From Arthrobacter sp. KBS0703 (GTDB lineage: Bacteria > Actinomycetota > Actinomycetes > Actinomycetales > Micrococcaceae): 64,000 bases of DNA. The notes under the pieces were generated by a model, which was given only the letters and a program-made list of their open reading frames with translations, made no database searches and was not told the origin of the DNA. The stretch lies in the NCBI RefSeq assembly GCF_002008315.2, contig NZ_MVDG02000001.1, positions 992,001 to 1,056,000 of the forward strand. Direction: 5' to 3'. A program made the position numbers and the translations under genes. Below are positions 3,941 through 51,583 of this stretch, in pieces; position 1 is the stretch's first letter, and every line of letters begins with the position of its first letter.

Positions 3941-4995
3941 ATGACCACCCCTGTGTCCGCACCCCCGACCGACCCCGAGCTGAATTCCGCCGGTGACGGC
4001 GGATTCCGGCCCGGACTCGTTTCCCGGCTGGGGGCCGAAGCGTTCGGAACCTTGTTCCTGGTGATCGCCGGACTGGGCGTTCCGCTCTTCACGCTTCCGC
4101 AGTCGAATCCGCTGCCGGCATCGCTGGCCGGCGGGCTCGCCGTGACGGCCGCGATGCTGGCCTTCGCCTACATCTCGGGCGGGCAGTTCAATCCGGCCAT
4201 CACGCTGGGTAGCTTCGTGGCAGGAAAGATCCGCGCCGCCCACGCCGCCGCCTACATCGGCGCGCAGCTCATCGGCGCCGCCGCCGGCGCCCTGACACTC
4301 TTCGGCATCCTCCGCACCGTCCCCAACATTCCCGACACCCGGGCGGCGTTCGATACCGTGACCGCCGGATTCGGCGAACATTCCGTCATTCAGACGCCCA
4401 TGGCGGGCGTCCTGCTGGCCGAAGTCCTGGGCGCAGCCCTCCTGGTCGCTGTTTTCCTCGGCACCACGGCGCGGCGCAACGTTCACGCGGCAGCGGCCCG
4501 TTCGCCGTTGGCCTCGCGTTTGCCGTGCTGCTGCAGTTCGGGCAGGCCATCGGAAACGCGCCGTTCAACCCCGCCCGTGCCACGGCCTCCGCGCTGTTCA
4601 GCAACAGCTGGTCGCTGGAACAGCTCTGGCTCTTCTGGGTGGCCCCGCTGGTGGGTGCCGCCATCGCCGGCCTAGTCTTCCGGGGTTTCTCCGACAGCAG
4701 CGCCGCAGCGGGCACCGCTGTGGCGCATCCGGTCATCGACGAGGGTGACACCGCGGACGCACTTGACGCCGGCGACGACTTCGACGGCGAGTTCGACGGC
4801 GGCGTTTCCGCCACGGAGGGCGGGGCGCCTGCAGCAGCCGGCGCAGCACCCGTACCCGCCGGCGCCGCGCCCGCAGTACCCGGCGCAGCGTCAGGCAGCC
4901 TCGACGAGCTGTCTCTTATACACATCTAGATGTGTATAAGAGACAGGCCGCGGGACGAAGCCCGCGACTTTTTCGACGGCCCGGGCAGCAAGTAG
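3941..4995 (+). CDS. Aquaporin / MIP-family channel, frameshifted and broken by an adapter
   Basis: The product is a membrane channel for water or small solutes. The first NPA box (QFNPAIT) lies in the frame opened by ATG 3941 and the second (PFNPARA) in another frame, so a single indel is needed near 4485-4495. Six membrane segments can be followed across the two frames. After the pore domain comes a long tail rich in Asp/Glu and then Ala/Pro (about 4720-4900), unusual for the family. An adapter scar at 4909-4946 interrupts this tail. The frame resumes as RDEARDFFDGPGSK and ends at TAG 4993-4995. The native gene is probably intact. Confidence 0.8.
4909..4946. other. Nextera mate-pair junction adapter (38 bp) in the aquaporin gene
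   Basis: CTGTCTCTTATACACATCT is followed directly by its reverse complement. It adds an in-frame stop to the aquaporin tail and replaces an unknown number of native codons. Confidence 0.97.
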
Positions 4996-6295: not shown

Positions 6296-9200
6296 GGATC
6301 CACCGGCTGGAGATCTGTGCCTTCGGCCCGTTCGCCGGCACCGAGGAGGTCGATTTCGACCGGCTCAGCGGCCATGGGCTGTTCCTGCTCAACGGAGCCA
6401 CCGGCGCCGGCAAGACCAGCGTGCTGGACGCCATCTGCTATGCGCTGTATGGATCCGTGCCCGGGGCGAGGCAGGACGGCAAGAGGCTGCGCAGCGATCA
6501 CGCGGAGTCCGCCACGGAGCCCCGCGTGACCTGCGAGTTTTCCGCCCGCGGAAGGCGGTTTGAAGTTTCCCGTTCACCGGCCTGGGAGAAGCCGAGCGCG
6601 CGTGGCCGGAACGGGTACACCACCCAGCAGGCCAAGACGCTCCTGCGCGAGCGGGTGGGCGGCGAATGGGTTGAAAAATCCGGCAGGAATGACGAAGCCG
6701 GAGCCGAGATCGCTGCCATCCTCGGCATGGACAGGGAACAGTTCACCAGGGTGGTCATGCTCCCGCAGGGGGACTTTGCGGCCTTCCTCCGGTCCAAGGC
6801 CTCGGACCGCCTGGAACTCCTGCAGAAACTATTCGGGACCGAGCGCTTCGAGGCGGTCGAGCGGGAACTGGCCGTCAAGGCCGCCGATGCCGCCAAGGAG
6901 GTGGCAGGCCACAACGGCAAGCTGGCGCTGATCGTGGCACGTGCCGACGCCGAAGCCGCGGCAATGGACCTGGACATGACCGACGCCCCGGATGCCGGCC
7001 GCGCCGGGGATCGGCTCGCGTGGCTCGAATCTGCCGCGTCGGCCAAGGCTTCGGCGCTGGCCGCCGAGGCTGAATCGTGTGAGGCGCTGCACCGGGAATG
7101 CACAGCCCGTCGTGATCAGGAACTGGCGCGCGAGGGCAGGCGGCTGAAGCTGGCCGCCGCGCTGCGCCGGAAAGCCGACGCTGCGGCGGCTGGTTCGGCG
7201 CTCGAGGACACCGCTGCCAGGCTGTCGCAGCACCGCAAGGCCGAGATCCTCGGCGGCCATCTGAAGGCCGTGGCGGCGGCCGACGCCCTCGTGACGCGTG
7301 CGGCCGAGGCCGTGGAGCGTGCCGCGGCAGGGGTGGAGCGGGCTGCCAGCGAGCACGCCGAACTGGCCGGCACCGACTCCTCCGCCGTTGACGTCACCGC
7401 CGAGCTCGGGCGGCTGCGGTCGCTGCTTGCGGTGGTGAACGAACGCCTGGCGGATGAGGACCGGCTGGCGGGCCTGTGGTCCCGTTCAGCCGGGCTCGCA
7501 GGGGAGCACCAGCGGCTTTCGGACGCCATCCAGGCCCATGCAACCTCCCTGTCTCTTATACACATCTAGATGTGTATAAGAGACAGGCCGGGCCTTGAGC
7601 CGCTGGAATTGCTGGCAGGCGAATCCGTGCTCCGCACCAAGGAAGCCGCGGCGGCCGACGAACTCGTGGACGTTGTCCGGCGCTACGGGGCGGCGGCTGT
7701 GCATTGTGCGGCCGCGACAGAGCGCCATCTGCGGGGCCGGGAAGAACACCAGGAACTGCGCACGCAGTGGCTTGACGTCCGGGAGGAGCGCCTGTCCAAC
7801 GCGGCAGCAGAGCTCGCAGCGCGCCTGGAGCATGGCGAGCCGTGCCCGGTCTGCGGCAGTGCGGAGCATCCGGCGCCGGTTCCAACCGCTGAATCCGCAC
7901 TGGGACTTGCCGAAAAAGAGGAACAGGCCAAGGCCCAATTTGAGCGGGCGGAGAAGGCGCTCGCCGCCTTGGACGCGGAGCTCTCCGCCGCGCGGCAGTT
8001 GGTCGCCGTGCTGGCCGGGCAGGGCGGCGACACTGATCCCGCCGAAGCACGCAAGGCGGCCCAAACCGCAGCGGAAGCGGCGGCCGAGGCCGCTGCCGCT
8101 GAGATTGAGCTGGCGAAGAGCCGGGCGCGGCAGGCGCAGCTTGCGGACCGTATTGACTCCACGGAGCGGGCGCGCGTGGAGGCGATGTCGGGCCTGGCTC
8201 AGACCGAATCGACCATGGCGGAAGTCGAACAGCAGGCGGCCACGCTGGAATCGGCACTGGCTGCGCTGCGGGCCGGCTACGGTAGCCTCGGCCTCCGCTG
8301 CGGCGGCATCGGGGCAACGATCGACGTCCTGGAGCGGGCATCCTCGGCCCGTGCCGAACTGGACCAGGCCGCGGCCCGGCTGGCCGACGCCCAGGGCCAA
8401 CTGGACGGTGCTCTGCCGGAAGCGGGCTTCGGTTCCGCCGCCGATGCGCAGGCGGCGCTTCTGACGCCGCCAGAGTCGGCGCGGCTGGATGCGGCAGTCC
8501 GTGCCGGGCACGACGAACTGGCCCGGCTGGAGGAGTTGTTCGCCAGTGAAGAACTCATTCTGGCCGGCAAGGAACGCGAATCCGGCAATGCAACGGAGCC
8601 GGGGGAGCTGGAGCGGCTTCGGGCCGACGCGGACCAGGCGGAGAAGACTGCGAAGGACGTGGCGCTGGCCGCCGGACTCGCCCTGCAAAGCTCCGGTTCC
8701 CTTGGCCGGCTGCGACGCGATTACGAGGACCTTGCGGAGGCTGGCCGGGGGCCGCAGGAACGCGCCGAGCTGCTGACGGCTCTCGCGGACTCGTCCCGCG
8801 GCGCCGGTGACAACAGTTACCGCATGAGCCTCAACAGCTATGTGCTCGCCGCACGGCTCGAACAGGTGGCCATTGCCGCGTCGGAGAGGCTCGTCGCCAT
8901 GAGCGACGGGCGGTACACCCTGCAGCACACGGATGCCAGGGCCGCGAGGAACGCAAAGTCCGGGCTAGGCCTGGAGGTAGTGGACGAATGGACCGGCCAG
9001 CGGCGCGATACCTCCACGCTGTCCGGCGGGGAGTCATTCATGGCTTCGCTGTCCCTCGCCCTGGGCCTCGCGGACGTCGTCCAGCAGGAGGCCGGCGGCG
9101 TGGACATCGAGACCCTGTTCGTCGACGAGGGGTTCGGCAGCCTCGACGAGCAGGCGCTGGAACAGGTGATGGACGCCTTGGAGGGACTGCGAGACGGCGG

Positions 9201-9429: not shown

Positions 9430-10841
9430 ATGAGCACCTCCACGGCGCCACAGCGCCCTTCGAAGCATTCACCTTCACGGCAGTCTCCATCACAGCACTC
9501 TCCCGCCGGCGCCGGCGAAATGTCCGTCGATTCGCCGCCGGCCCGCTCGCGAAGCCGTTACTCCCGGCTGCCTGAACTCGCGGGCAGGGGCTTTATCCCG
9601 CTCGGCCTGTTCGCCCGGCTGCCGCTGGCCATGCTGACCGTCGGCACGCTCACGCTCGTCACCTCCGTCAGCGGATCGTATGCTGTCGGCGGAACCTCCG
9701 CCGGAGCCGTGGGCATCGGATCGGCCATCGGCGCCCCCGTCCTGGGCGCCCTGGCGGACCGCTTCGGCCAGCGCCCGGTCCTCGTGGTTTCGGCCATCCT
9801 GAACGCCCTGGCCGTCCTCGCGCTGATCGCCACGGCCTATGTGACCGGTGCAGGAGGCGGCACTGTCCCCGTCCTCGCGGCGGCCTTCGTCGCCGGCGTC
9901 AGCTGCCCCCAGGTCGGCCCGCTGGCGCGGGTCCGCTGGATGGCGCTGACGTCGGCCGTAAACCGCAGGGGCGGCGGCACGGACCTGGACACGGCGCTGT
10001 CCTATGAGAGCACGGCCGACGAACTCACCTTCGTCCTCGGCCCGGCCCTCGTGGGTATCCTCGCCAGTCTGGTCGCGCCGTGGCTCCCGCTGGCCCTCGC
10101 CGCGGCACTGACCATCACGCTCGTGCCGGCCTTCGCCGTGCACCGTACGCATCTTTCAGTTCCCCGCAAAGCAGTTCCCCGCAAAACTGTCGAACGCAGG
10201 GCCGCCGATCGCAGCACCGCTGATCGCACGGCCGGCCAGATGTGTATAAGAGACAGGCCCGCCGGGCGGGTTCGCCGCCGTCGCCGCCGTGGCGCTGCCG
10301 GTGCTGGCCATGGTCTGCATGGGCAGCTTTTTCGGCTCCACCCAGGCCGCCCTCAGTTCGTTTTCTGTCTCTTATACACATCTAGATGTGTATAAGAGAC
10401 AGCCTGTATGCGGTCATGGGGCTCAGCTCTGCAGCTGCCGCCGTTTCCGTGGCCTACTGGCCGGCCCGCTTCACCCTGGCTGCGCGCTGGCTGGCCGGCG
10501 CCGCGGTCATGGCCGGCCTGTCGACGCTCCTACTGTTGCCGGGCGACGGCTGGGCCATGGTCCTGGTGCTGCTGGTGCTGGGACTGCCCGTGGGACCCGT
10601 CATGGTCACCGTGTTTGCCATCGGCGGGATTGTGGCGCCGGCGGGCAGGCTCGGAACCGTGATGACGGCGCTGGCCAGCGGCATCGTCGCGGGCACGGCG
10701 CGCGGTTCCTCGGTCGCGGGCCAGCTGGCGCAGGGCAGCGGATACTCGGCGGCGTTCCTCGTTCCCGTAGCCGCAGCGGCGGCGCTGTTCGTGCTCGGCG
10801 CGGCTGCCGCCGTCGTCGTCCGCCGGAACCAGCCCGAGTAA
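9430..10841 (+). CDS. Major facilitator superfamily transporter, interrupted by two adapters
   Basis: This is a 12-TM-type MFS protein. The N-terminal half has GRGFIPLGLFARLPLAML, then the MFS signature between TM2 and TM3 (LADRFGQRPV). The middle loop contains a short Arg/Ala-rich repeat (VPRKAVPRKT) before the first scar. A short native piece between scars reads GGFAAVAAVALPVL. The C-terminal half follows the second scar and ends at TAA 10839-10841. The start is uncertain: ATG 9430 and 9520 are in frame but poorly preceded, whereas ATG 9402 has a strong GGGAGGAGGG upstream but is out of frame, hinting at one more indel. Substrate unknown; a drug or metabolite exporter is likely. The stop codon lies in a 66-bp palindromic repeat. 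Confidence 0.82.
10238..10256. other. Nextera adapter, one half (19 bp), in the MFS gene
   Basis: Only the AGATGTGTATAAGAGACAG half is present. The MFS frame shifts across it, so native bases are lost. Confidence 0.95.
10365..10402. other. Nextera mate-pair junction adapter (38 bp) in the MFS gene
   Basis: The second scar in the same gene, 108 bp after the first. It separates STQAALSSF from LYAVMGLSS. Confidence 0.97.
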
Positions 10842-10898
10842 GTAGCAGCACGCGCCGATTTCGGCGCTGAAAACGGCGTCAGCTGCTACTTAGTTGGG
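10833..10898. repeat. 66-bp palindromic intergenic repeat, copy 1
   Basis: The inverted repeat runs from CCCGAGTAAGTAGCAGC to GCTGCTACTTAGTTGGG, with GGCGCTGAAAACGGCG in the middle. It lies between the convergent MFS and IclR genes. The TAA stop of the MFS gene is inside the left arm. Confidence 0.8.
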
Positions 10899-10908
10899 CG
10901 GGACAGGG

Positions 10909-19589: not shown

Positions 19590-19639
19590 GGACCGGTGTT
19601 CGGCCGGGGTTCCAGTCCGTGGCGGAGCCGGCCGTCCCG

Positions 19640-19705
19640 CCCAACTGAGTCGCAGCAGATGCCGTTATGAGAGCTGAGAACAGCGTGTGCTGCTACCTAG
19701 TTGGG
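19640..19705. repeat. 66-bp palindromic intergenic repeat, copy 2
   Basis: It runs from CCCAACTGAGTCGCAGCA to TGCTGCTACCTAGTTGGG, with outer CCCG/CGGG extending the arms to 19636-19709. The minus-strand permease gene takes its last codons and TAG stop from the right arm. Confidence 0.8.
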
Positions 19706-21111
19706 CGGGGTGCTAGTCCTTTGGCGGAGTCGGCGCGTACGGCCTCTCGTGACGCGGTGAACCGGGCACCCAGCCAGCAGGCGGCGGCGATGCCGGCGAT
19801 CAGCAGGACGGTGCTGACCAGCTGGATCCGGCTGCTCTCGGCGCTCAGTCCAACGGCGAAGATCAGGCCAAGGAGCACCAGGCCGAACACCGTCAGGCCA
19901 GGGAAGCCTTTCATGCGCAGCGGCAGGGGAGTTCCGTCGCGGTCCGCGCGCCGGCGCAGGATCAGCTGGGAGACGAGGGCGGTACCCCACACCACCAGGC
20001 AGGTTGAGCCGACGAGCTGGAACAGTGCGGGCAGGATCTGGCCCGGAAACAGCAGCTCAAGGACTGTGGCGATGAAGCCGAAGGCAACAGAGACGCCGAC
20101 GGCGACCATCGGCACCTTTGCGCCGCTGAGCCGCGACAGGAAGGCCGGCGCCTCGCCGCGTTCGGAGAGCGAGTAGACCATGCGGGAAGCCCCGTAAAGG
20201 TTGGCGTTCAAGGCTGACAGGAGCGCGACGACGGCCACCAGGGTGATCGCCGTGCTGGCACCGGGAATGCGGGCGGCGTCAAGGACGCCCGCGAACGGCG
20301 ACGCCAATGCCTCCGAGGTGGCGGGGAGTACGGCCGCGATAACGAACACGGATCCGATATAGAACACCAGGATCCGCCACACCACGGTCCGGATGGCCTT
20401 GGCCACGCTGTGCTCCGGGTCCTCTGTTTCGGCGGCGGCTACGCTGACGATCTCCGTCCCGCCGAACGCGAAGATCACGACGAACAGGGCCGTCGCTACG
20501 CCGCCCAGGCCCGCCGGAGCGAAGTCCGTGGCGATGTTGCTGAAGCCCGGCGAGGCGACGTCGGGCAGGAGACCCAGGAGCAGCGCGGCGCTGATGGCCA
20601 GGAAGATCACGATCGCGGCGACCTTGAGGATGGCGAACCAGAACTCGAATTCGCCGAAGTTCTTCACGCCGGCCAGGTTGATGGCAGTGAACGCCACCAT
20701 GAACACCAGTGCGAGGGCCCAGACCGGAATGACCGGCCAGACCGAGAACAGCAGGCCCGCGGCGCCGAGGGCCTCCGCGGCGATGACCACCACGAGCTGG
20801 AGCCACCACAGCCAGCCCACCGTGGCCCCGGCCGTCTTGCCCATGGCCCGCTCGGCGTACACGGAAAAAGCCCCGCTGTTGGGGTTTGCCGCCGCCATCT
20901 CGCCGAGCGCCCACATCACCAGGATGATCAGTGTGCCGGCCACGAGGTAGGAGATCAGGACGGCCGGGCCGGCGGCCTGGATTCCGGCTCCGGATCCGAG
21001 GAAGAGCCCGGCGCCGATGGCGCTGCCCAGTCCCATCATGGTCAGTTGGCGGGGTTTCATGCTGTGGCCGAGTTCTACTGCCGGACGCTCCGCCGTGGAC
21101 TTCATCGTCAT
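19693..21111 (-). CDS. Amino acid permease (APC superfamily)
   Basis: The 472-residue permease has about twelve membrane segments. The N-terminal MKPRQLTMMGLGSAIGAGLFLGSG is the amino-acid-transporter signature of the AAT family. EMAAANPNSGAFSVYAERAMG and FAFGGTEIVSVAAAETEDPE are also characteristic. ATG 21111 gives MTMKSTAERP; a much longer open frame upstream has no family similarity. The last codons (APRPTR and TAG) come from the palindromic repeat. It is divergent from an Lrp/AsnC regulator, which probably controls it in response to an amino acid. The permease resembles proline/GABA/aromatic-type members; substrate not decided. Confidence 0.9.
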   Translation of the reverse strand: MTMKSTAERPAVELGHSMKPRQLTMMGLGSAIGAGLFLGSGAGIQAAGPAVLISYLVAGTLIILVMWALGEMAAANPNSGAFSVYAERAMGKTAGATVGWLWWLQLVVVIAAEALGAAGLLFSVWPVIPVWALALVFMVAFTAINLAGVKNFGEFEFWFAILKVAAIVIFLAISAALLLGLLPDVASPGFSNIATDFAPAGLGGVATALFVVIFAFGGTEIVSVAAAETEDPEHSVAKAIRTVVWRILVFYIGSVFVIAAVLPATSEALASPFAGVLDAARIPGASTAITLVAVVALLSALNANLYGASRMVYSLSERGEAPAFLSRLSGAKVPMVAVGVSVAFGFIATVLELLFPGQILPALFQLVGSTCLVVWGTALVSQLILRRRADRDGTPLPLRMKGFPGLTVFGLVLLGLIFAVGLSAESSRIQLVSTVLLIAGIAAACWLGARFTASREAVRADSAKGLAPRPTR

Positions 21112-21931: not shown

Positions 21932-22642
21932 GTGTACACCACCTCAGCCAACGTTGCCGAGCGGCAGGCCGCTCCGCCGTCGTTGGCCATTTCCACGGTG
22001 ATCTTCGCCCTCCGGCCCAGCGAGGCCTCCGGCCGTCCCACGCTGTGGCTCCCGCTGGTCCGCCGGATCCGCGAGCCGTTCAAGGGCATGTGGGCGCTGC
22101 CGGGCGGACCGCTGACACACGCGGAGTCGCTGCAGGACGCCGCCTCGCGGAACCTGAGGGAAACAACCGGACTGGCCCCCAGCTACCTCGAGCAGCTCTA
22201 TGCCTTCGGGGGTCTGCACCGGTCGCCCACCCAGCGCGTGGTGTCCATTGTGTACTGGGCGCTTGTGCAGCCGACCGAGGCCGCGCTCGCGGACGAATCG
22301 GAAAACGTCAGGTGGTTCCGCGCAGACAAGCTGGGCGATCTGGCCTTCGACCATAACTCGATCGTCGATTACGCGCTCTGGCGGCTGCGGAACAAGCTCG
22401 CCTACGGCTCCATCGCCTACCACCTGCTGGGGGAGTACTTCACGCTCGCCCAGGTCCGGGAAGTCTACGAAGCCGTCCTGGACACCCGGCTGGACCCGGC
22501 GAACTTCCGCCGCCAGGTCAAAGCCACGCCGGAAATCGAAGAAACCGGTGAATACCTCCAGGGCGGCAAGCACCGCCCGCCACGCCTCTACCGATTTACC
22601 GGCCGTCCCGGCCTCGACCCAGATAACAGGAGTACCCCATGA
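21932..22642 (+). CDS. nrtR: NrtR, Nudix-related transcriptional regulator of NAD synthesis
   Basis: The 236-residue protein from GTG 21932 has an N-terminal Nudix fold (FKGMWALPGGPLTHAESLQDAASRNLRETTGL at about 50-82). The Nudix box is degenerate (RNLRETTG instead of the full REUXEE), as in non-catalytic ADP-ribose sensors. A C-terminal winged-helix segment follows (YFTLAQVREVYEAVLDTRLDPANFRRQV). ADP-ribose binding by NrtR is known to relieve repression. It is the first gene of nrtR-nadA-nadB-nadC-nifS, and its TGA overlaps the nadA ATG. Confidence 0.92.
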   Translation: MYTTSANVAERQAAPPSLAISTVIFALRPSEASGRPTLWLPLVRRIREPFKGMWALPGGPLTHAESLQDAASRNLRETTGLAPSYLEQLYAFGGLHRSPTQRVVSIVYWALVQPTEAALADESENVRWFRADKLGDLAFDHNSIVDYALWRLRNKLAYGSIAYHLLGEYFTLAQVREVYEAVLDTRLDPANFRRQVKATPEIEETGEYLQGGKHRPPRLYRFTGRPGLDPDNRSTP

Positions 22643-23959
22643 GCAGCGTCAATACGGCAATCCAGCTCATCACGCGTGAACAGGCCGAAAAAGGCCGCGC
22701 CGCAGCTGCCGGCAGCACGTGCAGCCCCTGTCTCTTATACACATCTAGATGTGTATAAGAGACAGACCTCGCGGAGGCGCTGGCCGGCATCCCGGCGTAC
22801 GGTCCCGGAGCCTCCAGCGCCGACGTCGCGCCGCCGTCGACCCCGCGCCAGGGCCAGCTCCCCGAGGAGTACAAGCTGGCCGGTGACGCCGAGCTGGACG
22901 CCCGGATCCGCGCCGCCAAGGCCACGCTCGGCGACCGCTGTCTCTTATACACATCTAGATGTGTATAAGAGACAGGTGGTGCAGTACGCCGATTTCGTCG
23001 GCGACTCCTTCCAGCTGGCCAACGCCGCCCTGACCAGGCCGGACGCCGAGGCCATCGTGTTCTGCGGGGTGCACTTCATGGCCGAAACCGCCGACATCCT
23101 CTCGACGCCGGAGCAGGCGGTCATCCTGCCCAACCTCGCCGCCGGATGCTCCATGGCGGACATGGCGGACGCGGACTCCGTGGAGGACTGCTGGGAGCAG
23201 CTGGAGGAAATCTTCGGCACCGAGCCCGACGCCGACGGCCGGGTTCCGGTCATCCCCGTCACCTACATGAACTCTTCGGCCGCGCTGAAGGCCTTCTGCG
23301 GCAAGCACGGCGGCATCGTCTGCACGTCATCGAACGCCAAGACAGTGCTGGAATGGGCCTTCGAGCGTGGCCAGCGCGTCCTGTTCTTCCCGGACCAGCA
23401 CCTGGGCCGGAACACCGCGAAGGCGCTGGGCGTCCCGCTGGAGCAGATGCCGATGTGGAACCCGCGCAAAGAACTCGGCGGGAACGACGAACAGGCGTTG
23501 CTGGACTCCAGGGTGATCCTCTGGCACGGCTTCTGCTCGGTGCACAAGCGCTTCTCGGTGGCACAGATCGAGAAGGCCCGCACTGACTTCCCGGGCGTCC
23601 AGGTGATCGTTCATCCCGAGTGCCCGATGGAAGTGGTGGACGCAGCGGACTCCGCCGGATCCACGGACTTCATCCAGAAGGCCATCGCCGCCGCCGTGGA
23701 GCCCACGGTGTTCGCGATCGGCACCGAGATCAACATGGTGAACCGCCTCGCGGCCCAGTATCCGCAGCACACCATCTTCTGCCTGGACCCGGTGATCTGC
23801 CCGTGCTCCACCATGTACCGGATCCACCCGGGCTACCTGGCATGGGTGCTCGAGGAACTCGTGGCTGGCCGTGTGGTCAACCGCATCACCGTCGACGACG
23901 CCGTGCAGCAGGACGCCAGGACCGCTCTGGAGCGCATGCTGGCCGCCAAGCCCCAATGA
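22639..23959 (+). CDS. nadA: Quinolinate synthase NadA, interrupted by two adapters
   Basis: NadA condenses iminoaspartate with dihydroxyacetone phosphate to quinolinate using a [4Fe-4S] cluster. ATG 22639 gives MSSVNTAIQLITREQ. A short actinobacterial N-terminal region with PEEYKLAGDAELDARIRAAKATLGDR follows the first scar. The second scar replaces the usual VVLGHFYQRDE stretch, after which VVQYADFVGDSF resumes. Family motifs follow: FCGVHFMAETADIL, MNSSAALKAFCG, FFPDQHLGRN, WHGFCSVHKRF, GTEINMVNRL and DPVICPCSTMYRIHP. Conserved cysteines for the cluster are present. Confidence 0.93.
22728..22765. other. Nextera mate-pair junction adapter (38 bp), first in nadA
   Basis: It lies about 90 bp into nadA, after codons for GSTCSP. 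The downstream part is in a different frame. Confidence 0.97.
22938..22975. other. Nextera mate-pair junction adapter (38 bp), second in nadA
   Basis: It sits between ATLGDR and VVQYADF, where about a dozen conserved native residues are missing. Confidence 0.97.
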
Positions 23960-23978
23960 CACGCGAAGTGAGCCCAGC

Positions 23979-25892
23979 ATGAACATCACCAGCGGAACCG
24001 GTAGCCCCGGGCGCAAGCGGCTGATCGTCGTCGGCAGCGGCATGGCAGGCCTTTACGGGGCGCTGCTCGCCGCGGACGCCGGCGCGGACGTGGTGCTGCT
24101 GACGAAGGGCGCGCTCGCGGACAGCAACACGTACTACGCCCAGGGCGGCATTTCAGCGGTCCTGGACGAGCCGGCGCCGGGGGACACCGTGGCCGCGCAC
24201 ATTGCCGACACGCTCCAGGCCGGGGCGGGCCACTGTAACCCGGAAGCCGTCCGGGTGCTGTGCACCGAGGCGCGCCGGGACATCGCCGGACTTGGGCGCT
24301 TCGGCGTGCGTTTTGACTTGGACGACGACGGCGATCCCGCCTTGGGGCTCGAGATGTGTATAAGAGACAGCCCACTCGGCGCCGCGCATCCTGCACGCCG
24401 GCGGCGATGCCACCGGCGCGGGGATAAGAGACAGAGCCAACGCCCTCATCTGCGCCGTGCTGTCGGCCCAGGCCTCCGGACGGATCCGGCTGCTGGGCCA
24501 CGCGCGTGCCACCGCGCTGCTCCAGTCCGGGCGGCGCGTGACGGGCGTCGAATTCCTCCATGACGGCCAGCTGAAGACCGTCCAGGCCGACTCCGTCCTG
24601 CTGGCCACCGGCGGAGCGGGACAGCTGTTCGCCCAGACCACCAACCCCTCCGTCGCCACTGCCGACGGACTCGCCCTGGCCTGGCGCGCCGGAGCGGCGG
24701 TTGCGGACCTTGAATTCTTCCAGTTCCACCCCACCTGCATGGTCCGCACGGCCGAAGCCGCCGAGGCGGACGCCAACCAGGACCCGCTGCTGATCTCCGA
24801 AGCGGTCCGCGGCGAAGGCGCCATCCTCGTGGACGCGGAAGGCCGCCGCTTCATGCGGGACTACCACGCGGACGCCGAACTCGCCCCGCGGGACGTCGTC
24901 TCCCGCAGCGTTGCCCTGCACCTGGCCGCACTCGGCGACCCCAACGGCCACGTCTACCTTGACGCCCGCGTCATCGAGGCCGCGAAGGGCCGGGGATTCC
25001 TGGCGAAGCGCTTCCCGACCATCACGCGGCGCACCCGCGAAGCAGGCATCGACTGGACGCGAGACCTGGTTCCCGTGGCGCCGGCCGCGCACTACTGGAT
25101 GGGCGGCGTGTCCACCGACCTCCACGGCCGCACCACCGTGCCCGGGCTCTTCGCCGCCGGCGAGGTTGCCTGCACCGGGGTCCAGGGCGCCAACAGGTTG
25201 GCCAGCAACTCCTTGCTTGAAGGCCTGGTCTTCGGACGGCGGGCTGTAGAGGCGTTTCTTGCGGAGCCTGGGCCGTCGGCAGGCTCCGTTGGGGCATCGC
25301 AAGACGGCGGGTCCGTTGGGGCGTCGCCTGACGGCGCCCCTCCGCGTGCTAGCTCGGCCGCTGGCGGCCTCCCCTTGACGCACGCTTCCGGGACCCCGCC
25401 AGTTGACGCTTCCGGATCTCCCGTCGCCGGTTCCGTTGGGGCGCCTGACGCGTCCGGGACATTTGGAACTGAAGGCGATTTCCCTGCCTGGGAGTTCGAG
25501 GCTGCGCCCGCTCCGGGGCCAATTGAGGCTTCCTTTGCCCGGCCGGGGCCGTTTTCTCGGGGGGCGCTGCGGCGGCTGAGATGTGTATAAGAGACAGACC
25601 TCGAGCAGCTCTATGCCTGCGCACCGGCGGGCAGCTGCGCGAGGCGGGCGCCGCGCTGGCGGAGTGGGCCGCCGTCGTGCGTCCCGACACCGTGCCGGAC
25701 GCCGAGGACCCGCGCGAGCACGAGGACGCCAACCTGCTGCTGGCAGCCCAGCTGCTGGTCCATGCCGCCCGGGAGCGGCGGACATCGCTCGGGGCGCACT
25801 ACCGCGACGACGGCAGGCAAGACGCTGCGGCCCCCGAAGACATTGACAAACGATACAGAATGACCCGGAAAGCGAGCCTCGTCCATGACTAG
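23979..25892 (+). CDS. nadB: L-aspartate oxidase NadB, broken by three adapter scars
   Basis: NadB oxidises aspartate to iminoaspartate for NadA. The N-terminal FAD-binding motif is IVVGSGMAGLYGALLAADAG. Further on come HSAPRILHAGGDATGA, ATGGAGQLFAQTTNP, EFFQFHPTCM and the active-site region EAVRGEGAILVDAEGRRFM. Then VPGLFAAGEVACTGVQGANRLASNSLLEGLVFGRRA appears. About 100 Gly/Ser/Ala/Pro-rich residues with repeated SVGA units follow (25255-25560), an unusual insertion. The C-terminal helical domain resumes after the last scar as RTGGQLREAGAALAEW and ends at TAG 25892. All scars disturb the frame; the native gene is probably functional. Confidence 0.92.
24352..24370. other. Nextera adapter, one half (19 bp), in nadB
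   Basis: It follows DDDGDPALGLE. Native nadB resumes as HSAPRILHAGG. Confidence 0.95.
24424..24434. other. Truncated Nextera adapter (11 bp) in nadB
   Basis: ATAAGAGACAG, the last 11 bases of the adapter, lies between GGDATGA and ANALICAVL. It is a partially trimmed remnant 53 bp after the previous scar. Confidence 0.85.
25285..25442 (+). repeat. Short repeats in a low-complexity insertion of nadB
   Basis: TCCGTTGGGGC occurs at 25285, 25312 and 25432, encoding repeated SVGA units in a Gly/Ser/Ala-rich segment. The segment lies between the flavoprotein core and the C-terminal helical domain. Confidence 0.7.
25579..25597. other. Nextera adapter, one half (19 bp), in nadB, with chimeric flank
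   Basis: The half adapter is followed by 21 nt (25598-25618) identical to nrtR 22185-22205, before nadB resumes. This is a mate-pair circle junction carried into the assembly. Confidence 0.95.
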
Positions 25893-26764: not shown

Positions 26765-27928
26765 ATGATCTTCCTCGACGCAGCAGCCACCACGCCGGTC
26801 CGCCGGGAGGTGCTCGAGGCCATGTGGCCCTTCCTGACCGGACAGTTCGGCAACCCGTCGAGCCACCATTCGCTGGGGGATGCCGCCGCCCGGGCGCTCG
26901 CGGAAGCCCGCAAGTCCGTGGCGGCCGTACTGGGATGCCGGCCGGCGGAAGTGACGTTCACGTCGGGCGGCACGGAGGCTGACAACCTGGCCGTCAAGGG
27001 AATTGCGCTGGCACGGCAGGCCGCGGACCCTGCGCTGGACCGCGTGGTGATCAGCGCCGTCGAACACCCGGCAGTGGAGGAATCCGCACGCTATCTTGAA
27101 CGCTTTCACGGGTTCACGGTGGACGTGGCATCCGTGAACAGCTACGGAACGGTGACCGCCGAAGCCCTGGCCGCGGTGCTCCGGCCCGAAACGGCGCTGG
27201 TCAGCATCATGTATGCCAACAACGAGGTGGGGACGGTCCAGCCGGTCGCTGAGCTCGCCGCCCTGGCGCGGGAGCGCGGCGTTCCCTTCCATACCGATGC
27301 CGTGCAGGCCGCAGGGTGGCTCCCGGTCGATGTGAAGACGCTGGGCGTGGACGCCCTGAGCATTTCCGGGCACAAGCTCGGCGCCCCCAAGGGCTGCGGC
27401 ATCCTGTTCGTGCGCGGCAGGACGAAGGCCGAACCCCTCATGCACGGCGGCGGGCAGGAGCGCGGCCGGCGTTCCGGCACGGAAAATGTGGCCGGGGCCG
27501 TGGGGCTTGCCACCGCGCTCACCCTGGCCCACGCGGATCAGGCGGCGCTCTCGGAACGGGTCACGGAGCTGCGGGACGAATTCATCAGCGCCGTGCTGGG
27601 CAGCGTTCCCGGCGCCGTGCTGACAGGCCATCCGGCCGACCGGCTGCCGTCCGTGGCATCTTTCTGCTTCCCGGGCACCAGCGGCGAGTCCGTGCTCCTG
27701 GAGCTGGAACGCCAGGGGGTGGTCTGCTCCAGCGGTTCGGCCTGCGCGGCGGGATCGGACGCGCCGTCGCCGGTGCTCCTGGCCCTGGGGATCGAGGCCG
27801 AGGTGGCCCAGACGGCTGTGAGGTTCAGTTTTGATTCCTCGGTGACCGCGGCGGACCTGGCGACCGCCGCCGCTGCGGTGACGGCCGCCGTCGGAAGCGT
27901 GCGGAACCTGGGCCAGATTCCCAAGTAA
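26765..27928 (+). CDS. Cysteine desulfurase (NifS/IscS family) of the NAD operon
   Basis: The 387-residue PLP enzyme starts MIFLDAAATTPVRREVLEAM. The PLP lysine is in SISGHKLGAPKGCG near residue 205. The sulfur-accepting cysteine is in GVVCSSGSACAAGSD near residue 327. It takes sulfur from cysteine. Its place 7 bp after nadC suggests it builds the Fe-S cluster of NadA, as the NAD-linked NifS of Bacillus does; this is inference from context. The last codons (PK and TAA) fall in the left arm of a palindromic repeat. Confidence 0.93.
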   Translation: MIFLDAAATTPVRREVLEAMWPFLTGQFGNPSSHHSLGDAAARALAEARKSVAAVLGCRPAEVTFTSGGTEADNLAVKGIALARQAADPALDRVVISAVEHPAVEESARYLERFHGFTVDVASVNSYGTVTAEALAAVLRPETALVSIMYANNEVGTVQPVAELAALARERGVPFHTDAVQAAGWLPVDVKTLGVDALSISGHKLGAPKGCGILFVRGRTKAEPLMHGGGQERGRRSGTENVAGAVGLATALTLAHADQAALSERVTELRDEFISAVLGSVPGAVLTGHPADRLPSVASFCFPGTSGESVLLELERQGVVCSSGSACAAGSDAPSPVLLALGIEAEVAQTAVRFSFDSSVTAADLATAAAAVTAAVGSVRNLGQIPK

Positions 27929-27985
27929 GGAGCAGCTGGCGCGGTTCTGAGCCCTGAAAACGACGCGAGCTGCTACCCAGTTGGG
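27920..27985. repeat. 66-bp palindromic intergenic repeat, copy 3
   Basis: It runs from CCCAAGTAAGGAGCAGCT to GAGCTGCTACCCAGTTGGG. It separates the convergent cysteine desulfurase and GtrA genes and supplies the desulfurase TAA stop. The GtrA stop is 4 bp outside it. Confidence 0.8.
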
Positions 27986-27989
27986 CTGG

Positions 27990-33667: not shown

Positions 33668-33734
33668 CCCAACTGGGTAGCAGCTCGCGCCGTTTTCAGG
33701 GGCTGAAAACGGCGTGAGCTGTTACCCAGTTGGG
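33668..33734. repeat. 67-bp palindromic intergenic repeat, copy 4 (best conserved)
   Basis: The arms pair almost perfectly from CCCAACTGGGTAGCAGCTC through CGTTTTCAG to the complement, with two mismatches. It follows the DUF559 gene on the minus strand and supplies that gene's last codons (HPTG) and TAA stop. Confidence 0.85.
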
Positions 33735-34512: not shown

Positions 34513-34538
34513 AAACGACGTGCTGCTACCCAGTTGGG
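34513..34538. repeat. Half copy of the palindromic repeat, copy 5
   Basis: Only one arm is present (AAACGACGTGCTGCTACCCAGTTGGG is split by its partner's absence). It is directly followed by a purine-rich tract and an adapter, so the other arm may have been lost in assembly. Confidence 0.65.
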
Positions 34539-34620
34539 TGGGGGAGCAGGGGACGGGTGGGGGAGGAGGGGAGGAGGAGGTGGGGGAGGATGGGATGGGG
34601 GAGGTCGGGGAGGAGGGAGG
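34537..34620. other. 84-nt purine-only-like low-complexity tract
   Basis: The + strand is almost all G and A (for example GGGGGAGGAGGGGAGGAGG) between the half repeat and the adapter. Nothing genic is visible. It is either low-quality read sequence extended to the adapter or a G-rich spacer. Confidence 0.6.
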
Positions 34621-51471: not shown

Positions 51472-51485
51472 TCGGTTCCGGCCAG

Positions 51486-51551
51486 CCCAACTAGGTAGCA
51501 GCAGGCGTCGTTTTGAGCCGTCATAGCGACACCTGCTGCTACTCAGTTGGG
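51486..51551. repeat. 66-bp palindromic intergenic repeat, copy 6
   Basis: It runs from CCCAACTAGGTAGCAGCAGG to ACCTGCTGCTACTCAGTTGGG, with TTTTGAGCCGTC at the centre. It starts 15 bp after the ilvD stop and probably ends its transcription. Confidence 0.8.
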
Positions 51552-51583
51552 TGAACGGCATTATCCGATTCGTGGACAATGAA

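Follow-up and report, generated by a model that had tools for sequence, protein, structure and literature searches.

Nextera mate-pair libraries are the closest described system to the feature reported here. As far as the available text of PMC6298255 describes it, the procedure starts with tagmentation that attaches biotinylated junction adapters; the gaps are then filled, the fragments circularised and the junctions trimmed. According to the accessible portion of PMC4458127, mate-pair inserts usually measure 1-10 kb, and the defaults there are set for about 4 kb. A second library is relevant because the 38-mer found here is printed in the excerpted text of PMC7357533 as a circularisation ('ring') adapter for a library of ~4 kb. 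The scar that interrupts nadB in the present assembly is almost certainly a remnant of a Nextera-type mate-pair library. The assembly, from a soil bacterium, comprises 4.86 Mb in 37 contigs, and the window, meaning the whole 64-kb stretch of DNA that was analysed, covers positions 992001-1056000 of contig 1. The features at this locus are the following.

23979..25892, + strand: nadB (L-aspartate oxidase), interrupted by scars at 24352-24370 and 25579-25618; named from family matches to its separate pieces, with the start taken from the ORF translation
25579..25597, + strand: half junction adapter, the 19-bp Tn5/Nextera mosaic end AGATGTGTATAAGAGACAG, read directly
25598..25618, + strand: pasted 21 nt, the putative left end of a circularised fragment and an exact copy of 22185-22205
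22185..22205, + strand: segment of nrtR from which the 21 nt derive, with the left end of the fragment placed at 22185
22185..25578, no strand: probable mate-pair fragment of 3,394 bp, sharing same-strand geometry and size with 8 other scars in 1.66 Mb

The names nrtR, nadA, nadB and nadC were assigned by family matches. The scars split nadB into three ORF pieces that, taken separately as they stand, match the FAD_binding_2 and L-aspartate oxidase models, with a partial piece scoring 337 against 639 bits, below the cut-off, with the NCBIfam model. The nrtR ORF (21932-22642) is unbroken and matches NUDIX and NrtR_WHD; its score with the NCBIfam repressor model is 116 against 400 bits, again below the cut-off. 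Residues 97-427 of the nadA ORF match NadA, and the nadC protein is up to 92% identical to its counterparts in Arthrobacter species.

The preliminary description had reported a half adapter at 25579-25597 followed at 25598-25618 by a copy of nrtR 22185-22205, and this is confirmed as an exact match of 21 nt. Direct comparison shows that the very next base differs, and the copy in nadB directly abuts the adapter half. Aligned to the window with up to 3 mismatches, the 21-mer has two copies only, against 0.00 expected in 100 shuffles, which rules out a chance match. Extending the search to the whole 4.86-Mb assembly with up to 2 mismatches returned the same two exact copies, no third one, and a single 2-mismatch place on the opposite strand ~2 Mb off. 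The scar keeps only the second 19 bp of the 38-bp junction; no bases of the other half are left, and no complete junction stands at the site. For this reason the right end of the fragment (25578) could be tens of bases off, a shift that leaves the 3.4-kb size unchanged.

Circularising a fragment that begins at L and finishes at R places, along the + strand, the R end before the adapter and the L start after it. It follows that a piece standing after the adapter should be sourced upstream and a piece standing before it should be sourced downstream, in both cases on the same strand, and this geometry can be sought in the finished sequence. A sample of 1,661,380 bases holds 176 scars (128 full, with 28 and 20 half scars on the two strands); the sample is not random, as most of its first 20 stretches were selected for the listed adapter sites they surround and the other 60 are contiguous runs. 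Copies of at least 12 nt were sought within 15 kb for 343 of the 352 flanks, 9 having been dropped because they read as adapter, and 5 kb of sequence was present on the predicted side for 322 of the 343. In the band from 2.5 to 5 kb, exact copies of 12 nt or longer, placed on the same strand and the predicted side, were found for nine flanks. Every copy of at least 15 nt in this band is placed as predicted (7, with 0 on the wrong side or strand), and the two misplaced copies, one with the right strand but the wrong side, the other on the opposite strand, are both of 12-14 nt. The whole 15-kb range adds one more copy of at least 15 nt, a 16-nt inverted match 20 nt away. Among 5,000 random control flanks, the predicted side gave 0 copies of at least 15 nt and 4 of 12-14 nt, the wrong side of the same strand gave 1 copy of at least 15 nt and 3 shorter ones, and the other strand gave 14 matches, all of 12-14 nt. 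Two of the nine predicted copies measure 12-13 nt, where ~0.3 such copies would be expected at the control rate of 4/5,000; these two are likely, but not certain, to be pasted pieces.

At nadB and the 8 further flanks, what lies across the adapter fits the other end of the same fragment, on the same strand, in outward geometry and at kilobase distance. The implied fragments measure 3,077, 3,179, 3,257, 3,350, 3,394 (nadB), 3,410, 3,562, 3,926 and 4,204 bp. The circle junction with a fragment of about 3.4 kb that had been proposed for nadB is supported by these sizes, of which 3,394 bp is the median. Insert sizes that never reach about 3.4 kb had been named as grounds for refuting it; measured without reads, the 8 other scars imply 3,077-4,204 bp, with 3.4 kb central. 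One of the eight lies in the window.

4894..4908, + strand: probable second pasted piece, 15 nt identical to 9136-9150, standing before the full junction at 4909-4946, with an implied fragment of 4,204 bp

The flanks of this piece are non-conserved in the two relatives compared. Scars with pasted ends were also seen to bunch, 3 of the 9 falling within 5 kb in one sampled stretch (L160, G000:C1:3670874-3675549) and 2 of the 9 within 1.7 kb in another (L093, G000:C1:533061-534666).

The bases next to the adapter carry a further trace of how the fragments were made. Ends were kept where they lie beside a complete mosaic end and dropped where they read as adapter, leaving 272, which have G at position 1 in 54% and C at position 9 in 52%, over a background of 33%. 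The Tn5 target consensus, which we take to be GNTYWRANC, is matched with a mean of 3.04 against 2.34 (sd 0.07) at random places, and 0 of 2,000 draws reached as high a value, with the caveat that the control is not G+C-matched. With the same caveat, the enrichment of G1 and C9 is what Tn5 cut sites would leave at genomic ends. The same 272 ends are also skewed at positions 4, 6, 11 and 14 (C 47%, G 50%, G 50% and C 51%), partly outside the 9-bp target. These data bear on the possibility that sheared fragments were ligated to the same 38-bp ring adapter, with no tagmentation by Tn5 involved. Such a library is known from the excerpted text of PMC7357533, where the identical 38-mer is used in this way, and its circles would have the same geometry. 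However, an end bias of the form G(1)...C(9), like that of the 9-bp Tn5 target, is unexpected from shearing and favours tagmentation over shearing and ligation, even if the control lacks G+C matching. Ligation of sheared fragments is therefore very unlikely to be how this library was made.

Alternatively, a chance ligation during library preparation could have attached 21 nt of a different molecule. Joins of two molecules through the adapter are possible in principle, and the presence of only half an adapter at nadB would be compatible with one. Random partners, however, would scatter across the 4.86 Mb and over both strands, whereas the 7 copies of at least 15 nt found between 2.5 and 5 kb away are all at distances of 3.1-4.2 kb, with strand and side as predicted. 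For 75 scars the joined pieces (20 to 141 kb) were scanned whole, and besides the adapter and the predicted-side copies no match longer than 14 nt was found; the assembly-wide copy search covered the nadB 21-mer alone, other flanks being searched within 15 kb or within their own joined piece. The placement of the copies and the whole-piece scan rule out intermolecular chimeras as the main cause, and for nadB itself a chance ligation is barely plausible.

Comparison with relatives shows what the nadB scar displaced. Eighty related loci were compared, both 160-nt flanks being placed in 9 and one flank or none in the rest. In 9 of these 9, the relatives have 23 native bases where the present sequence has 40 nt (19 + 21), a count that spans the points equivalent to 25578 and 25619 and includes unaligned edge bases. 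The printed alignment shows the same conserved stretch at the same spacing in 12 further loci where the right flank alone was placed. Across 16 relatives, 3-9 of the 21 bases agree with the native stretch, and the right-hand join of the 21-mer has 1-3 bases in common with that stretch. The few shared bases of the earlier statement thus come down to only 1-3, and the event is a replacement of 23 nt and not a plain insertion. The 23-nt figure is clear with the short (160-nt) flanks only. With 300-nt flanks, 0 of 36 relatives aligned tightly and the equivalent value appeared in 5 only. In the two closest relatives, 188 and 164 nt of the left flank failed to align and the values were -7 and -49. 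A variable region further upstream in nadB is taken to be the reason for these results. Relatives carry intact copies of nadB. A true duplication of the nrtR segment, which had been named as the finding that would undo the artefact reading, is rejected, as the relatives have an ordinary nadB with 23 native bases unrelated to the 21-mer (9 of 9 with two flanks) and the copy abuts the adapter.

Loss of native sequence is not confined to this scar. The lost stretch could be measured at 10 of the 16 window scars and ranges from 6 to 45 nt, as listed here by scar.

10364: 34 nt
15640: 24 nt
16400: 43 nt
22727: 29 nt
22937: 37 nt
24351: 6 nt
25578: 23 nt
30684: 24 nt
59371: 32 nt
60742: 45 nt

Agreement among tight alignments was 26/26 for scar 16400, 70/70 for 22937, 32/33 for 24351, 28/30 for 22727, 14/16 for 15640 and 5/8 for 30684. 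At scar 15640 the other 2 tight alignments gave 23 nt, and 261 nt of the left flank did not align in the two-relative comparison; at scar 30684 all 47 relatives together gave 24 in 30 cases and 21 in 16. The lengths at 10364, 59371 and 60742 rest on two agreeing relatives. For scars 4908, 7548, 10237, 30331, 34620 and 48319, either a flank was missing or the computed length fell anywhere between -139 and 209, with long tails left unaligned. The first nadB scar (24352-24370) is one of those measured, with 19 nt replacing 6 native bases of the relatives. Native-like sequence reaches the adapter on both sides at 9 of the 10 measured scars, the tenth being the second nadB scar. Native-like flanks with bases missing between them fit two different fragments meeting in the palindromic adapter, not a single circle. 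The simplest account of these other measured scars is that two contig ends, each carried into the adapter by reads of a different fragment, were joined through the self-complementary 38-mer. Two of them lie in nadA.

22728..22765, no strand: full 38-bp palindromic junction in nadA, with 29 native nt missing
22938..22975, no strand: full 38-bp palindromic junction in nadA, with 37 native nt missing

Neither flank of either junction has a copy of at least 12 nt within 15 kb; the left flank of the first has a 13-nt copy 22.6 kb off. The nadA ORF (22676-23959) stays open through both junctions, and its translation holds a 12-residue adapter-coded peptide twice. Adapter-coded residues of this kind can enter protein databases, and a literature search for adapter-coded peptides found no paper.

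The adapter is present far beyond the window. The 19-mer half occurs in 339 copies on the + strand and 342 on the - strand of the assembly, and the 38-bp palindrome, which is self-complementary, in 251 exact copies, besides which there are about 180 exact half copies. Within the window, the 17-base core of the mosaic end has 29 copies against 0.00 expected. Thirteen of the 16 window scars have both halves and 3 have one. Half scars make up 48 of the 176 sampled. Of the missing half, 15 of the 48 retain 4 or more exact bases and 7 retain 1-3, and nothing of it remains in 26; a few of the 48 are near-complete junctions with errors. These partial remains suggest collapsed or mis-closed junctions. 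The 50 + 50 nt around scars have a G+C content of 0.715 against 0.662 at random places, which we infer to fit contig ends at hard-to-sequence spots.

The window also contains a family of native-looking imperfect palindromes of roughly 74 nt, several of them with GCTGCTACNNAGTTGGG at the end. Their core has 22 exact matches in the 4.86-Mb assembly, 7 of which fall inside the 64-kb window, so that it looks clustered.

10829-10902, window: palindrome family member
19636-19709, window: palindrome family member
27916-27989, window: palindrome family member
33699-33734, window: palindrome family member
34519-34547, window: palindrome family member
51482-51555, window: palindrome family member

An insertion made in the living cell, whether of a Tn5-derived element or of nrtR sequence truly duplicated into nadB, has a vanishingly small chance of being the cause, for while the mosaic end works as a Tn5 end, cellular Tn5 insertions are ruled out by about 340 copies per strand in one genome, by halves that abut with nothing between them in all 13 full window scars, by the two hits that nadA and nadB would each need, by the absence of a 9-bp target duplication at all 10 measured window scars, where native bases are missing instead, and by the absence of the 38-mer from 38 of 38 other genomes (24 congeneric and 14 from the same order).

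The mate-pair origin of the nadB scar can be pictured as a series of steps. Tn5 transposase would have cut the DNA, adding the 19-bp mosaic end at each fragment end, and fragments of ~3-4 kb would then have been circularised, so that the adapter linked the right end of each fragment to the left end of that same fragment. Reads crossing this join may have been assembled without junction trimming. In nadB, a small gap was probably closed with such a read, one that ran through native sequence to 25578, the half adapter and 21 nt of nrtR (22185-22205), and the next contig would have been attached at 25619 on 1-3 shared bases. The order of the assembly steps, the role of a gap closer and the exact right end are what we infer from the finished sequence, and it is assumed that the gap closer would accept 1-3 shared bases. 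The preliminary description extended the circle junction to the origin of all the scars. One library can indeed account for them, given the same adapter and the Tn5-like bias, but a single mechanism does not: a pasted piece of at least 12 nt accompanies only 9 of the 176; with 9 of 343 flanks, few scars are covered by direct demonstration.

The feature arose in library making and assembly and is an artefact; an insertion, a duplication or a pseudogene is unsupported. Intact genes look broken through such scars, and loss of NAD synthesis, frameshifts or a repeat family could be misread from them. That an assembly scored as 99.99% complete is nonetheless full of adapter halves is a warning. Because the measured scars lack native bases, removing the adapter letters alone would not restore the sequence. 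Scraps of 12-28 nt beside the scars give the length and orientation of mate-pair fragments, and the bases adjacent to the adapter give the transposase bias. It is quite probable that a finished assembly, read-free, can hold enough residue for the making of its library to be reconstructed. If true, assemblies of unknown provenance could be audited without reads.

Set against the two described systems, the locus shares the identical 38-mer and circles of about 4 kb with the ring-adapter library, as given in the excerpted text of PMC7357533. That library, in the same excerpt, made its fragments by ultrasound and ligation, while the ends here are biased in a Tn5-like manner. The resemblance to the Nextera mate-pair junction adapter, known as the read-level problem that NxTrim tackles (PMC6298255, in the available text), extends to the same 38-bp palindrome and its 19-bp half. 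Both have a tagmentation-type end bias and a right end joined to a left end on the same strand, and the fragment size found here falls within the 1-10 kb given in the accessible portion of PMC4458127. What sets this case apart from the read-level problem is that nadB retains half an adapter only, that the junction stands in finished sequence, and that native bases are missing from each of the 10 window scars where this could be measured.
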